Origin: Rhizophagus irregularis
Lineage: Eukaryota > Glomeromycota > Glomeromycetes > Glomerales > Glomeraceae
Direction of reading: 5' to 3'
Length of the DNA: 64,000 nt
Assembly: GCF_026210795.1 (NCBI RefSeq)
Contig: NC_089430.1
Coordinates: 2,666,001-2,730,000 of the forward strand
Part shown: positions 6,455 through 63,399 of the stretch, in pieces
How the letters are laid out: each line of letters begins with the position of its first letter
Numbering within the stretch: the stretch's first letter is position 1
Made by a program: the position numbers and the translations under genes
The notes under the pieces: generated by a model
Databases searched by the model: none
What the model was told of the DNA's origin: nothing
The model's input: only the letters and a program-made list of their open reading frames with translations

Positions 6455-8290
6455 ATGGCTACTATTAGATATGAATTTGTTTATGCTGCAATTCAAAAAG
6501 CTGATACATTAATAGATCCTAACATTTGCAATAACTTAACGAAACGATATGAATTTATAAAACAAAAAATTCTTGAAAATGAATCTCTTACAAAAGATGA
6601 AAAATGGAAAGCAAAAAAAATAATAGAACAAGATCATGATTATATTAAAGTTATATCTAATGAAGGAAAAAAAAGATTATGTGAAAATTGTGCTTTAGAG
6701 TGTTTGGCTACACTATATTGTGAACATTGTGTTCGAACCTATTTAAAAAATAATTTTTCAAACTGGACTTCTGGAAATAGTGATATTAATTATCTAATAC
6801 AAGTATTACAGAAAGAATCATTACATCCAGATAATATAGTTGAATGGATACCATACAATAATTTACAAGATATTAAATATATAACTAAAGGTGGATGTTC
6901 TGAGATTTATTCAGCAATTTGGATCGGTGGACATTATATTGAATGGAATTCTAAGGAGCAACAATTTAAAAGATCAGGAACTTTTAAAGTAATACTTAAA
7001 AAATTGGAAAATGTTGAAAATGCTAATAGAAGTTGGTTTGATGAGGTAAATAATTTAAAAATATGATAAGTAATTTATAAATTTTTAAAATGTGTAACGA
7101 ATATTATTTTAAAAATATTTATAGGCAATATCACATTTAGCGTTAAGTAACAAATTTCCTAGCGTTGTCAATTGTTATGGTTTAACTCAAGATCCAACGA
7201 ATGGAGATTATATGCTTGTAATGCAATTATTGGATAAAGATTTAAGAAAATATTTACAGTATCAACATACATGGGAAGAAAAAATAAATATAGTTGTTAA
7301 GATTATTTCTGCACTTTATAACATTCATTTTTATGAAGCGGTACATCGAGATTTACATTCTGGAAATATTTTATATTCACGATATAATGGTTCTTGGTAT
7401 GTAAGTGATTTTGGATTTTGTGGGCCCGCTGATAAACCATTAAAAAGTATATATGGAAATCTTCCTTATATAGCCCCTGAAGTTATAATTGGAAAAGAAT
7501 ATACTTTTGCATCTGATATTTATAGTTTTGGTATACTTATGTGGGAAATTTCATCAGGACAAGCACCCTTTAATAATTATGAACATGATTATGATCTTGC
7601 GATGAAAATTGTTAATGGTATGAGACCAAAAATTAGAACAGAAATTCCATCAAAATATAAAGAACTAATGAAACAATGTTGGGATGCTGACCCATTAAGA
7701 AGACCTGATGCAAATACTCTTAATGTAGAAATTCAAAAAATGATGAAAGATATTTGCAATAATGATAATGCAAATGAATTTAATACTTTAGAATATAATA
7801 ATTCATCTCAAATCTCTAGTTCAAGTTCGAATTTAAGTTCAAGTTCTACGTTATCAACTAGTAAACTTTATCAATTTGAAAATTTACCAGAACCAAGAAA
7901 CGCAACTGAAGGTAAGATTTCAATATAAAAAAGCCTTTTTATTATTTTTAAATAAATAATTATTCAAAAATTACTATGTTTAATATTTTTATATTAATAT
8001 CAACAGAAGAACAAGAAGGTAAATAATAATTATGATTTGTACTTTTATGTCTCCTCACATAGTATGGTAGTAACTTTAAATAATTTCTTTATAGCATTTC
8101 ATAGCCAACCTTACGATTTCGAGATACCTAATAATAGTAAGTATATGTAAAATAACATTATATTATTTATATTAATAATGGATATGCTTAATAAATATTA
8201 TCTTTTATTATATTAGTCGAAGATCTTGATTCGTCTAAAGATCAAGAGGAACTTATTAAGGATCTAAATAGATTAGAATTAGATAAGTAA
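6455..8290 (+). CDS. TKL-like protein kinase with N-terminal Cys module (about 501 aa)
   Basis: Exons are 6455-7045, 7125-7911, 8007-8018, 8095-8136 and 8217-8290. The first intron is phase 0 and the rest are phase 1, and the joined frame ends at TAA 8288-8290. Residues 76-92 carry CENC...CEHC, a possible zinc site, followed by FSNWTSGN. The kinase domain follows: loop KGGCSE near 145-150, ATP-binding Lys near 182 (VILKK), catalytic loop HRDLHSGN with Asp near 273, DFG near 292, then YGNLPYIAPE, SFGILMWE and CWDADPLRRP. All catalytic residues are present, so an active Ser/Thr (TKL-type) kinase is likely. A Ser-rich linker and a short tail follow the domain. The tail exons match those at the start of the array in the gene at 108. 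Lineage-expanded kinases of this kind are known in Rhizophagus, and substrates are unknown. Confidence 0.82.
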
Positions 8291-35220: not shown

Positions 35221-35673
35221 TCTAGGGCGGGCAATTGGACAATTGGACGTTTTGGACATTTGTCCAAAACCTGTCCAAAACTTGTCCAAAACCAAAACCT
35301 TTTTTTCATTGGACAGGTTTTGGACAGATCACATGACAAAAAATTTAATTTTGGCCAGAATTATGACTAATTTTGGCTAATTTTAATTTTAGTTCAATTA
35401 TCAAATTACTTCAAAAATCTTTAAATGTTAATTTTTAATATTATTTTGATTTTACATTAATTTTTATTATTTAATTATATTAAATATTTACTTTTTTAAC
35501 ATTTTAACATTATATTTTCATTTTATTTTTAGTTTCAGTTAATAAATATTAGGACTCTTGAGCAGTTTTAAACTGTCCAAAACTATGTCCAAAACTATGT
35601 CCAAAACTGGTTTTGGACAGTCCAAAATTGTCCAATTAAAAAAACCAATTGGACAAGTCCAAAACCCAACACT
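35221..35673. mobile_element. Element built of GTTTTGGACA / TGTCCAAAAC words
   Basis: Both ends of this 450-bp block are dense in the word TTTTGGACA and its reverse complement (about seven copies at 35245-35325 and eight at 35570-35665). The right end, read outward, begins CAGTGTTGGGTTTTGGAC, which is hAT-like; the left end is TCTAGGGCGGGCAATTGGAC. The interior is plain AT-rich. Inverted-repeat transposon is the likely explanation, but no target duplication could be fixed. Confidence 0.5.
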
Positions 35674-36218: not shown

Positions 36219-39200
36219 TCATATTTCACAGTCTAAGCAGTCAGTTAAATAAGGATTAAGCAACCGAGATGTATAAATGGCCTGAGAAATAGTTTCATTA
36301 TCTTCCTCAAAATAATCAAGGTGTAGTTTTCTATGTTTTTCTGCTTCTCTAAACTGTTCATTGAGTTCGTGATCATTTTTATAGTATGATTCTTGAAACG
36401 AAAAAATCGTTTCTTCAATTTCCGTCATCTTTGGTCTATTTTCTGGATTTGGATCCCAGCACCTTCTTATTAAGTCAATGTAGCATTCTGGTGCTTCTGG
36501 CTCGTGTATTACTGGTCTACTTTCTTTACATATATCTATTGCCAAAAACTCATCATGTTCACGATCAGCAAAAGGTTGTCTTCCAGTGGCTACAAAATAC
36601 ATAATCATACCAAAGCTATATACGTCCGCTGCTTGAGTATAGGGTTCACCCCTTAATACTTCGGAAGCTACATAAGGCATGACGCCATAAACATTTTCAT
36701 TATCCATATTACCAATTTCCCCGCACAATCCCATATCTGAAATAAATGCATTAAGTTCGGAATCAGAATAAGTTTCACATTTGAACAATATATTTCCTGT
36801 GTGAAAGTCACAATGAACCATCCTCCTTTGATGAATTCCTTCGAGTCCTTTACAAATATCGGCTAATACTAATAATTTATCATTCCAATCAAGTCTTTTA
36901 TAATTCTTTTTCATCCAATCCTGAAGATTTCCACCCTTCGCATACGCAAGAACCATAATATAATCTTTTGTATCCGGATGTTGAGATATTCCGTATACTT
37001 CAAGAACGTGACTATCCTCATCCATCGAATACGCTTTAATCTATTAATACATAAAGGAGTTACTAAAAAAACATTTAAATGAATACTTATAAATCCAATC
37101 ACGTACCTCTTTCATGAACTTATCTGTCACGTTTTTTGAATCATGTAAACATTTTAAAGCGACCTTTGTATTTACTTCATTTAACCACATCTTTAAATAG
37201 GTGTTATAGGACAATGGACCATCTTTCCATATTGCTGAATATACTGTAGCAAAACCGCCTTGGCCTATCTTTTTAATGTTACGGAATTGGTCGTACGGTA
37301 TCCATTCAAATATCTTATCTCGAAAATAATCAACTTTTAGTTGCTTTTCTTGAATGAAAGCATCTAATTTTTCATTACCACTGGTCCAATTTGTAAAATC
37401 ATCTTTCAAGTAATTCATTAGACATGGTTTACACCATCCATCAATATATTCTTTACCGCATGCTTCACAATATCCATCTTGCAAAACCAAGGTGTAATCC
37501 TTTGTATCCGGATTTTGAGATATTCCATATATTTGAAGAACACTATCATAGCTAGATATTGAATATTTATTAATCTGTTAAAAAAAAAATATATTAAATA
37601 AGGCACATATATTATTACTAGCATTAAAGTTATTTCACAGCGCAGTTGTTAAAATCACGATATTCACGCGACGCGTGACATATCTCTTTTATCCCCTGCC
37701 CGAAAATATAAAAAAATCACAGATGACCAGTAAATATGGGTTAAATAAATTTATCTCATACCTCATCTAAAAGTTCGTTGGTAGCAAGGTTTTGTGAATC
37801 ATGTAAACATTTTAAAGCGACCTTCATACCCGGATTTCTTATCCATTCCTTTCTTTTCTCATGGTAATGTAATGGACCACCATTCCATATTGCTGAATAT
37901 ATTGTAACAAAGGCATCCCCACCTAACCTTGTAACGTTATCAAACTGATCATATGATATCCACTCAAATATATTATGATTATATTCATCAAATTTTAATT
38001 GCAGTTCTTGAATAAGACCGTCAATATTTTCATTTCCACTGGTCCAGCTTTTAAAATTTTTTTTAAAATAATTTATTTGGCACGATTTACACCATTTATC
38101 TTTAATATACTTGTATTGTTCACCACATTTTTCGCAATATCCATCCTGTAAAACCATAATATAATCCTTTGTGTCTGGATGTTGAGAAATTCCATATATT
38201 TTAGGAATGTCATCATTGGCATGTCCTTCAACTGAGTATGTTTTAACTGAGTATGTTTTAACCTAGTAAAAATATTTTAAACAGAAGTCATTATCACATT
38301 AAAGAAAGGTTACAATTAAAATTATAACAATTTATCATACCTCATTTAAAAATTCATTAGTTTTATATTGTGAATCATGTAAAAGTTTCAAAGTAACTTT
38401 TTCATCTGACTCTCTGATTAATTCCATTTTATCATTATCGTAGGAAGATAAGCCATCATTCCATATTGCAGAGTATATTGTAGTGGAATCACTTTTACTT
38501 ATTTCTTTAACACTATTGAACTTATTGTATGGTATCCATTCAAATATTAAATCAGCTTTACTATTAATGCGTAATTGCATTTCTTGGATAAAATCGTTAA
38601 TCTTTTCATTTTCACTGGTCCAGTTTGCGAAATTCTTTTTCAAATAATTTATTTGACATGACTTGCACCATTGATCAGTATCGATATATCTCTTATCACA
38701 TTTTTCACAATATTCATTCTTAAGAACTATAACATAATCTTTCGTGTCTGGATTTTGAGATATTCCGTATATATCTTTCGTGTCTGGATTTTGAGATATT
38801 TCGTATATTTCTGTTTCGTCTGTTTCGATTGCCAAGTATGCTTTAACCTATTAACAAAAAATTATTATTACATTAAAACAGTGTTTAATTTTCTAAACTA
38901 TTTATTTGTACAATCTATACCTCGTTCAAAAATTCTTCAGTATTGTTTTTTAAGTTACGTAAACATTTTAAATTAACCCTTTCATCCGATTTTCTCATCC
39001 ATCCCCTTTTCTCATCGTCATTAATTTCATAATATAATGGACCATCTTTCCATGTTGCCGAATGCATTGTAACAAGATCACCTAAATCATCGTCAGATAC
39101 TTCCTTAACGTCATTAAACCGATCGTATGGTATCCATTCAAATATTTTGTCATCATGCTTATCAATGCTAAATTGCTTTTCTTGAATGAAATCATCAATT

Positions 39201-39916
39201 TTTTTATCTTCACTGGTCCAATTTGCAAATTCTTTCATAAAATAATTTATTTGACATGGTTTACACCACCATTTGTCAGTATTCTTCTCACCGCATTCTT
39301 TACAATATTCTTCACAGTATCCACCGTCTAAAACCATGATATAATCTTTAGTATCTGGTTGCTGAGAAATTCCATATATTTTAAGGGTATCATAATTATA
39401 ATGTCCTTTAACCGAATATGTTTTAACCTATAAATATGAAAGTTATTATTACACTAAAAGATATAGATTTATTTTTTAATTAAATTTATCTTATACCTCA
39501 TTTAAAAATTCATCAGTGTTGTTTTGTGAATCATGCAAAATTTTTAGAGTAACCTCCTTTTTGTTTGAATCTCTTATCAATTCATTTTCATCATTATCAA
39601 AACATAAAGGACCGTCCTCCCATATCGCTGAATATATCGAAGCGAAATCACTTTTGCTTATGTCTTTAACGTCATTAAACTGATTATATGGAATCCATTC
39701 AAATAATACATCATAGTAGTCATCAACATTTAATTGCGTTTCTTGAATGAAATCATCAATTATTTCATTTTCACTAGTCCATTTTGTAAAATTTTCTCTT
39801 AAACAGTTTATCTGACATTGCTTACACCACTCGTATTCATTATTATATTCTTCACCACATTTTTCGCACGTCCCACTTATTACACTATTTTGTGATGATT
39901 GAGATGATTGAGACAT
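36219..39916 (-). CDS. Kinase with five zinc-ribbon/N-lobe units and one catalytic C-lobe (about 1074 aa)
   Basis: Six exons on the minus strand: 39916-39497, 39427-38921, 38847-38341, 38262-37762, 37574-37107 and 37040-36219. All introns are phase 0 and the joined frame is open throughout. Exon lengths are 420, 507, 507, 501, 468 and 822. Each of the first five units has CxxC...CxxC (for example CEKCGEEY...CKQC), the motif NWTS/SWTSGN, FEWIPYDQF, a beta-1 to beta-3 stretch (YSAIW...ALKCLHDS) and the start of helix C. The next exon supplies beta-4/5 (YGISQNPDTKDY) and then, in units 1-4, the next zinc ribbon instead of a C-lobe. Only unit 5 has a proper glycine loop (GQGGFATV). Units 1-3 have SKSD or DDDL there, and unit 4 has GGDA. 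The final exon has HCDFHTGN, DMG in place of DFG, YGVMPYVASE, SFGMIMYF and CWDPNPENRP. A multi-ligand sensor or scaffold is possible; this is inference. Confidence 0.78.
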
Positions 39917-61909: not shown

Positions 61910-63399
61910 TTATTTATCCAATTTTAATCCTTTAAAATCCTTAATAATTTCCTCTTGGTTTTTTGACGAATTATAATCTTCAACTAATATGTCAAAACAT
62001 AATAATAATCAGTAAACATAAATATTTTTAAAATAGATAATATAATACTACTTTAATTAAACTTACTATTATTATTTATTAGGTATATCGAAATCATAAG
62101 GTTTGTATTATCATTATTATAAGCCTCATTCAACATTACACAAATTACAATAAAAATAATAATCATCTTAGGTCTTTTTAACGGATCAGCATCCCAACAT
62201 TGTTTCATTAATTGGTTATATCCTGGTGGAATTTCTGATCTAATTTTTGGTCTCATACCGTTTACTTTCATTGCAAGATCATAATCATGTTCGTAATTAT
62301 TAAAGGGGGTTTGACCTGATGAAATTTCCCACATAAGTATACCAAAACTATAAATATCAGATGCGAAAGTATATTCTTTTCCAATTATAACCTCAGGTGC
62401 TACATAAGGAAGATTTCCATATATACTTTTAATGGTTTATCAGCGGGCCCACAAAATCCAAAATCACCTATATACCAAAAATCGCTACATTGAATACAAA
62501 ATGTTTCCAGAATGTAAATCTCGATGAATTGCGTTGTTACAATGAATTCCAATAAGTGCACAAATTATACGATAAACTAAATATATTTTTTCTTTCCATG
62601 TATGTTGATGTTGTAAATATTTTCTTAAATCTTTATTCAATAATTGCAATACAAGCATATAAACTTTATTTATTGGATCTTGAGTTAAACCATAACATTT
62701 AACAAAGGTAGGAAATTTGTTACCTAATGTTAAATGTGATTTTGCCTATACATATTTTTAAATTAATAATTATTACGTATTTTAAAATATATAAAATAAA
62801 TTAAATTTAAATTATTACCTCATCAAACTAGCATTTTCAATATTTTCCAATTTTTTAAGAATGACTTCAGGTGGTTTCGATCTTTCTAATTGTCGTTTTT
62901 CGGAATTCTACTCAACATATTCTCCATCAGTCCAAAGTGCTGAATAAATCTCGGAGTATCCACCTTTAGTTATATATTTACTATTTTGTAATTTATTATA
63001 TGGTATCCATTCAATAATTTTATCTGGACGAAGTGATACTTTTTGACATTCTTGTATTAGATTATCAATATCACTATTTCCAGATGTCCAGTTAGAAAAA
63101 TTATTTATTAAATAGGTTCGAACGCAATGTTCACAATATAATGTAGCAAAACAATCTTTTTGACATTCTTTACACAATCTTTTTGTTCCTTCATTAAGAA
63201 GAACTTTTTGGTAATCATGATCTTCTATTAATATCCTTATTGCTTCCAACTTTTCATCGCTTATAAGAGATTCATCATCAAAAATTGATTTTATTTGAGA
63301 TTCATGAATTTCGGTCATGTCATTGTAAATGCTAACATCTATTAATGCATCAACTTTTCTAATTGCAGCATAAACAAGTTCTTTCCTAATAGCAGCCAT
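61910..63399 (-). pseudogene. Kinase pseudogene of the 108/6455 family
   Basis: Minus-strand copy with all parts of the 6455 gene in order: start MAAIRKELVYAAIRKVDALI, Cys module CKEC...CEHC, FSNWTSGN, KGGYSEIYSALW, the catalytic loop HRDLHSGN, YGFC-type DFG segment, the C-lobe CWDADPLKRP, and a last tail exon ending GLKLDK at TAA 61910-61912. Lesions: the Trp codon after EYVE is TAG (62908-62910). About ten bases are missing before the first donor (near 62830). The sequence after the HSGN loop is shifted near 62486. One A is lost in the LKSIYG codons (near 62427), and the Ser-rich linker is deleted. The promoter block at 63500 is still present, so decay looks recent. Confidence 0.85.

Follow-up and report, generated by a model that had tools for sequence, protein, structure and literature searches.

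In the pseudokinase-kinase tandems JAK and GCN2, the repeated element is the whole two-lobed kinase domain, and to our knowledge kinase domains are duplicated whole in all known cases. In the HET-E type arrays of WD40 units, the number and surface of the units change by exchange among the repeats, and a single effector domain is present. Mycobacterial PknG carries a four-Cys metal knuckle just before its kinase N-lobe; we know of no arrays of this element in PknG. Plant tandem kinase proteins such as Yr15 form a further group (available text of PMC6170490). In Rhizophagus irregularis the kinases of the PF07714 family have undergone a huge expansion, and other arbuscular mycorrhizal fungi also have expanded families of them; expanded families at times form tandem gene arrays and high-copy genes adjoin Mutator-like elements (available text of PMC6123716 and PMC8647823).

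Here we describe a gene of R. irregularis in which five kinase N-lobes precede a single C-lobe. The gene occupies positions 36219-39916 on the minus strand of the window, the whole 64,000-nucleotide stretch of DNA that was analysed. Its exons and introns are given below, in the order of transcription.

39497..39916, minus strand: exon 1, 140 codons; start codon, then unit 1 with its zinc ribbon, WTS helix, EWIPY motif, beta-1 to beta-3 and the front of helix C
39428..39496, minus strand: intron 1, 69 nt, phase 0, after the helix-C Glu
38921..39427, minus strand: exon 2, 169 codons; back of helix C and beta-4/5 of unit 1, then unit 2 from its zinc ribbon to the front of helix C
38848..38920, minus strand: intron 2, 73 nt, phase 0
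38341..38847, minus strand: exon 3, 169 codons; beta-4/5 of unit 2, then unit 3
38263..38340, minus strand: intron 3, 78 nt, phase 0
37762..38262, minus strand: exon 4, 167 codons; beta-4/5 of unit 3, then unit 4
37575..37761, minus strand: intron 4, 187 nt, phase 0
37107..37574, minus strand: exon 5, 156 codons; beta-4/5 of unit 4, then unit 5
37041..37106, minus strand: intron 5, 66 nt, phase 0
36219..37040, minus strand: exon 6, 273 codons; beta-4/5 of unit 5, hinge, the sole C-lobe (HCDFHTGN, SDMG) and the stop codon

The initial annotation had proposed six minus-strand exons joined in phase 0 to about 1074 codons, and this holds: the exons sum to 1074 codons (140+169+169+167+156+273), and all five introns run from GT to AG and fall directly after the codon for the helix-C Glu. 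A unit profile search returns five units (unit 1 at 39497-39868) and one C-lobe, which confirms the tandem N-lobe observation, namely that N-lobe repeats without C-lobes share one reading frame and the last alone is complete. As a gene structure on DNA, this anatomy and its recurrence, described below, are near certain. Small repeats are also present in and around the gene. The beta-4 motif is duplicated in frame in exon 3 (36 nt, 38737-38812), a 15-nt duplication at the start of exon 4 (38230-38268) encodes KTYSV twice, and short TGTCCAAAAC repeats, perhaps a small mobile element, lie 3' of the gene at 35261-35293 and 35574-35608.

Each unit consists of a four-Cys ribbon, the WTS helix, EWIPY, beta-1 to beta-3 and the first part of helix C, which ends at its Glu and is followed by the phase-0 intron; the back of helix C and beta-4/5 are encoded by the next exon. 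The strand and helix names are those we presume from homology with known kinases. The beta-5 strands of units 1-4 lead into the next ribbon, and only that of unit 5 is followed by a hinge and C-lobe. All five units share, unchanged, the four Cys, WTS, FEWI-Y, the beta-3 Lys and the last Glu. The motifs first listed for the units need two small corrections: FEWIPY reads FEWISY in unit 4, and the first Cys knuckle of unit 2 is expanded (CEEYCKEC). The initial annotation was likewise right to assign beta-1 to beta-3 and beta-4/5 to each unit but overlooked the front half of helix C; because this half, with its Glu, is present in every unit, each repeat amounts to an entire N-lobe that stops at the hinge. 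Unit 5 has the only normal glycine loop (IGQGGFATVY), as had been noted; the corresponding positions in units 1-4 read, in order, ISKSDFASIY, VSDDDLGDLVTMH, ISKSDSTTIY and LGGDAFVTIY.

Database comparisons separate the last unit from the others. Together with the C-lobe, unit 5 has the hallmarks of a PF07714 (TK/TKL-like) kinase (IGQGGFATVY, VALK, FMKE, HCDFHTGN and SDMG, with Cys replacing the Arg of HRD) and matches kinases in the PDB with a best E of 7.8e-28. The C-lobe of exon 6 matches Pfam PF07714 at E=2.1e-33 and exon 5 matches weakly (E=0.0076), while a Pfam scan of exons 1-4 gave no kinase match at E<=1. The upstream units are not full protein kinases, since they have no C-lobe and the next unit starts right after beta-5. 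Units 2-5 are 47-58 percent identical to unit 1 of the same gene, and the upstream units are homologous to a kinase N-lobe on this measure. When upstream N-lobes were spliced and compared alone with PF07714, 4 of 12 matched at E<=1 (best 1.4e-6; unit 1 of the window gene was not among them), and an upstream N-lobe profile found nothing significant among solved structures (best E 0.62). An AlphaFold model of exon 2 was poor (pLDDT 49) and unfit for structure search. The ribbon has the two CxxC-type knuckles of a four-Cys zinc ribbon, with zinc binding as a prediction; it weakly resembles the ribbons of eL37 (best E=0.093) and NOB1 (0.0033), both below our cut-offs, and its match to the PknG rubredoxin domain, Pfam PF16919, is not significant (E=0.91).

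The initial annotation had presented a single odd gene, which proves to be a whole gene class. We searched the genome (146.7 Mb, 32 contigs) with exon 2 of the window gene and with a composite unit, and sampled 36 stretches picked for their matches rather than at random. Exons that fuse beta-4/5 to the next unit number at least 298 in the union of searches and sampled loci (at least 285 by a strict motif). They fall into at least 116 clusters, at least 62 of them with two or more such exons, on at least 25 of the 32 contigs; the richest are C16 (at least 23 clusters) and C14 (at least 19). All rows among the best 150 of 4611 candidates for the exon-2 query and the best 150 of 5155 for the composite unit, two lists that overlap, have their start either inside the YGISQ motif of beta-4 or ahead of it. 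Although the searches read through stops, 149 of these 150 and 150 of these 150 rows, respectively, are stop-free, as are 148 of 150 rows listed by another search. The architecture recurs with divergent units across contigs, so chance or assembly error is a very unlikely source of the 116 or more clusters. Relatives in prokaryote genomes and viral contigs were also sought; as expected, none was confirmed.

The sampled loci contain 185 fused exons, 172 of them by the strict beta-4/5 motif, and 24 arrays with both an intact 5' side and a C-lobe. The number of N-lobes in these complete arrays ranges from 4 to 13 (median 6). A Met lies no more than 30 residues before the first ribbon in 21 of the 24, and in 21 the first unit alone has a preceding Met without beta-4/5; internal units have the strict beta-4/5 motif ahead of them in the same frame in 139 of 148 cases. 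Array introns (n=108) have a median length of 72.5 nt and fall into frame classes of 40, 35 and 33, which shows no frame preference, and therefore they are not read through. A phase-0 acceptor is found by a strict pattern in 126 of 168 units tested, and 7 of 223 units are fragmented. A C-lobe is absent from two sampled arrays, L019 and the copy that lies upstream in L017. Eight C-lobe loci had been sampled as presumed single-unit genes; six are arrays of at least 2-3 units at the edge of the stretch and two are without a unit, and the single-unit comparison is accordingly made with two window genes only. Several other arrangements were seen. L030 and L036 have C-lobe exons of the array kinases with no unit found upstream within the sampled stretch. 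L005 carries two arrays head to head on opposite strands (5 units minus, 4 plus) within 7.7 kb. A decayed relative at C28:3402878-3403156 shares 81 percent identity with exon 1 of the window gene and contains three TGA stops.

Conservation within the unit depends on its position in the array. For these counts we excluded five first units at a stretch edge and one partial window gene and kept the two single-unit window genes separate. Terminal units, those next to the C-lobe, have a GxG glycine loop in 32 of 35 cases, versus 7 of 180 upstream units (Fisher p=6e-28). The beta-3 Ala is present in 34 of 35 terminal and 41 of 180 upstream units, and the helix-C Glu, often Lys upstream, in 33 of 34 versus 98 of 154 readable units (the residue is unreadable in one terminal and 26 upstream units). 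The beta-3 Lys is kept in 35 of 35 versus 160 of 178, and just one upstream unit combines GxG, Lys and Glu. All four ribbon Cys are present in 168 of 180 upstream and 27 of 35 terminal units. Per-column entropies, in bits for upstream and terminal units, are 1.49 and 1.57 in the ribbon, 1.28 and 1.48 in the WTS helix, and 0.97 and 0.84 in EWIPY, as compared to 2.26 and 0.78 in the glycine loop and 1.28 and 0.90 in beta-3/helix C; beta-2 is about equal in the two. The upstream set is without window units, and the terminal set includes one single-unit window gene, which could only raise terminal entropy.

The C-lobes are well preserved, with HxD..N present by pattern in 35 of 37 and HxD..N and DxG both kept in 34 of 37. 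The exceptions, read individually, are L006 (HHN), L002 (LRD and DMK) and L001 (SSME for DxG). The three terminal units without GxG are those of L002, L013 and L034; the C-lobe of L002 is also damaged, whereas those of L013 and L034 are undamaged despite the lost GxG.

We compared reciprocal nearest units to assess selection, using 35 upstream pairs and 7 terminal pairs and leaving one mixed pair aside. Pooled pN/pS is 0.49 for upstream pairs (bootstrap 0.43-0.57) and 0.36 for terminal pairs (0.27-0.51). Simulations of neutral evolution, run with nine settings, had means of 0.68-1.22, and their lowest single run was 0.58. The first 58 intron bases, including the splice signal, differ at 0.072 per site (29 pairs), versus a pN of 0.057 and a pS of 0.124. 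Since intron divergence is close to pN, the unit as a whole is under modest constraint, and our argument is founded on how unevenly substitutions fall along it. By region, upstream pN/pS is 0.21 between ribbon and WTS, 0.26 for EWIPY/beta-1, 0.36 for the helix and 0.58 for the ribbon, whereas the linker (1.30) and the glycine loop (1.22) exceed 1 (heterogeneity chi2=116, 9 df, rounded values). Terminal pairs give 1.15 in the linker and 0.11 in the glycine loop, and Fisher p for the glycine-loop contrast between upstream and terminal pairs is 7e-6. Such unevenness is firm evidence of selection because drift on dead sequence would be even. The simulations also expect a stop in approximately 22-28 of the 35 pairs and the pairs show none, but the units were detected as open frames, so the stop-free rows among the listed matches and the 7 of 223 fragmented units are the fairer figures.

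On these substitution patterns, the glycine loop of upstream units is free of constraint and the beta-1 and WTS region is conserved. The suggestion that upstream lobes bind nucleotide is disfavoured, because the positions released, with GxG in 7 of 180 upstream units and pN/pS above 1, are the ones that contact ATP. The assignment of the upstream units as predicted pseudo-N-lobes is well supported. Competition for the C-lobe and scaffolding, the other roles suggested in the initial annotation, may both still apply.

The window offers a possible view of the ancestral state. Two single-unit zinc-ribbon kinase genes on its plus strand, at 108-1570 and about 6590-7850, have an intron after the helix-C Glu in the same phase as the arrays. 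Because intron place and phase are shared, the arrays can be explained by one new within-exon join, from the end of beta-5 to the start of the ribbon, followed by exon duplication. The gene at 108-1570 is a pseudokinase with its glycine loop deleted (ISSKVYSADW) and HQN for HRD, and the gene at about 6590-7850 has an intact HRDLHSGN. At 62107-63174 on the minus strand, a partial zinc-ribbon unit and C-lobe matches mark a further single-unit kinase.

Arrays have changed both as wholes and unit by unit. Nearest upstream pairs that span two arrays have equal unit numbers in 23 of 23 cases, which indicates that arrays were copied whole; a further 12 pairs lie within one array. Near-identical periods that include the intron are seen in L006 (units 7/8 differ at 2 of 550 positions) and L003 (units 2/6, 7 of 533). 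Unit 4 of L016 is 88 percent identical to its terminal unit and keeps GxGG, with Lys already at the helix-C Glu position; it is apparently a terminal unit copied upstream and later released. The L016 gene may itself be damaged, since its C-lobe match is split over two frames. A single ancient split of the units into terminal and upstream types was also considered. In a quick tree of 212 units without the glycine-loop and VALK columns, terminal units need 23 state changes, versus 29-35 in 100 shuffles. The nearest unit by identity to each of 35 terminals is another terminal in 26 cases, an upstream unit of the same array in 4 and another upstream unit in 5; both results depend on too few columns for a firm view of such a split. 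The ribbon has been shed in places. It is absent from units 2 and 3 in L031, L032, L033 and L035 (unit 1 of each being truncated by the stretch edge), where beta-5 reaches the WTS helix and N-lobe within a few residues, and it is missing from some units of L018. These ribbon-less units are, by predicted fold, the closest thing to the free N-lobes of which the initial annotation spoke.

As read from sequence, these results establish the window gene as a member of a large class in which a (zinc ribbon)-helix-N-lobe module has been multiplied one exon at a time ahead of a single kinase. Our main reading, to which we give a probability of about 0.45, is that the upstream units are maintained but catalytically dead docking modules, for partners or for the kinase itself, that feed one catalytic domain. 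Maintained pseudo-N-lobes are indicated because the glycine loop is lost upstream while beta-1 and WTS are conserved and because arrays without the ribbon keep their N-lobes. The repeating exon comprises the back of helix C, beta-4/5, the zinc ribbon, beta-1 to beta-3 and the front of helix C, and since its introns are in phase 0 at an identical place, gain or loss of an exon preserves the frame. By sequence, upstream modules have been freed from nucleotide binding with much of the remaining fold kept, and their zinc-ribbon loops and N-lobe surfaces may bind partners, possibly sister lobes or the kinase. Several binding sites would in this way be tied to one active kinase, and repeat number and surface loops could change fast while catalysis stays constant. 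Rows of WD40 or ankyrin units serve fungal receptors as binding repeats in a similar manner. More tentatively, the half-domain arrays may be a distinct signalling architecture, a free-standing N-lobe repeat without an ATP site, each copy of which would serve as an exchangeable allosteric element that works in cis on either the single C-lobe or its helix C.

Pseudokinase domains regulate kinases allosterically in JAK or KSR/RAF, and the upstream pseudo-N-lobes might similarly swap with, cap or dimerise side by side with the true N-lobe via helix C and so hold the kinase off or activate it in cis. The retention of whole N-lobes with the beta-3 Lys and often the helix-C Glu is consistent with such autoregulation, and the arrays that lost the ribbon yet kept their N-lobes favour a role of the N-lobe itself. 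However, one or two decoys would suffice and arrays reach 13 units, and the upstream helix-C residue is often Lys; we consider this explanation rather unlikely. Alternative splicing could instead choose among upstream units and yield many in-frame isoforms per gene. Skipping would keep the frame, given the uniform phase and place of the window introns and the phase-0 acceptors elsewhere, but free splicing of any unit to the C-lobe predicts glycine loops upstream, and these are mostly lost. The use of cassette exons would consequently be limited to variable inclusion of upstream exons, and we regard it as improbable.

The repeats might also be a neutral by-product: unequal exchange would multiply in-phase exons, these would be tolerated, and the fold would be kept only because a misfolded module is harmful to the terminal kinase. 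The near-identical periods of L006 and L003 and the modest overall constraint against introns fit this explanation. The zinc ribbon, WTS and beta-1, however, are about equally conserved in upstream and terminal units, duplicated genes keep their arrays unit for unit, and the scale is hundreds of exons, so that we hold a neutral origin to be unlikely, though less so than exon choice by splicing. An artefact, either decayed separate genes falsely joined or a repeat error of the assembly, is most improbable. Some copies are plainly decayed, such as that at C28:3402878 with its 3 stops, but beta-5 and the next unit share one exon in most sampled cases and in the 300 rows of the two overlapping lists, 299 of which are stop-free. 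The separate decayed genes raised as an alternative in the initial annotation do not fit, as exons 2-5 lack a start codon and open behind a splice acceptor, within the rear part of helix C, and the substitutions are strongly uneven. We rejected assembly error on the divergence of the units, their recurrence on many contigs and the open frames of the listed rows.

The arrays differ from each of the systems described above. As in the tandems of JAK, GCN2 and Yr15, an active kinase is accompanied in cis by a dead module related to kinases; those proteins repeat the whole two-lobed domain, whereas the arrays have one C-lobe each, at the 3' end, and repeat the N-lobe only, with up to 13 copies that each stop at the hinge. 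HET-E type arrays likewise combine exchanging repeats with one catalytic or effector domain, but the repeat here is half a kinase and shares homology with a portion of the catalytic domain behind it. The likeness to PknG is a four-Cys knuckle ahead of an N-lobe; the PF16919 comparison was not significant, and PknG forms no arrays that we know of. The arrays resemble the PF07714 expansions of arbuscular mycorrhizal fungi in their C-lobe and very high copy number. In their available text, the papers on these expansions (PMC6123716, PMC8647823) count kinase domains and duplicated genes and do not mention rows of N-lobes in one gene, and no description of such rows was found in the open literature searched, which consisted mostly of abstracts. 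On these sources, the kinase expansion is already known and the N-lobe array architecture was not found described.

The at least 298 exons that break the whole-domain rule in one genome suggest that an N-lobe may live as a repeat without a C-lobe. Rows of 4-13 units, with and without zinc ribbons and with recent copies in transition, provide a natural series for the study of N-lobe function, and they offer a molecular way into the so far unexplained kinase explosion of arbuscular mycorrhizal fungi. If the more tentative reading as a distinct signalling architecture is true, a root symbiont would have amplified and swapped the kinase N-lobe exon by exon, across hundreds of exons and with the ribbon shed in some lineages, to tune or aim one kinase.
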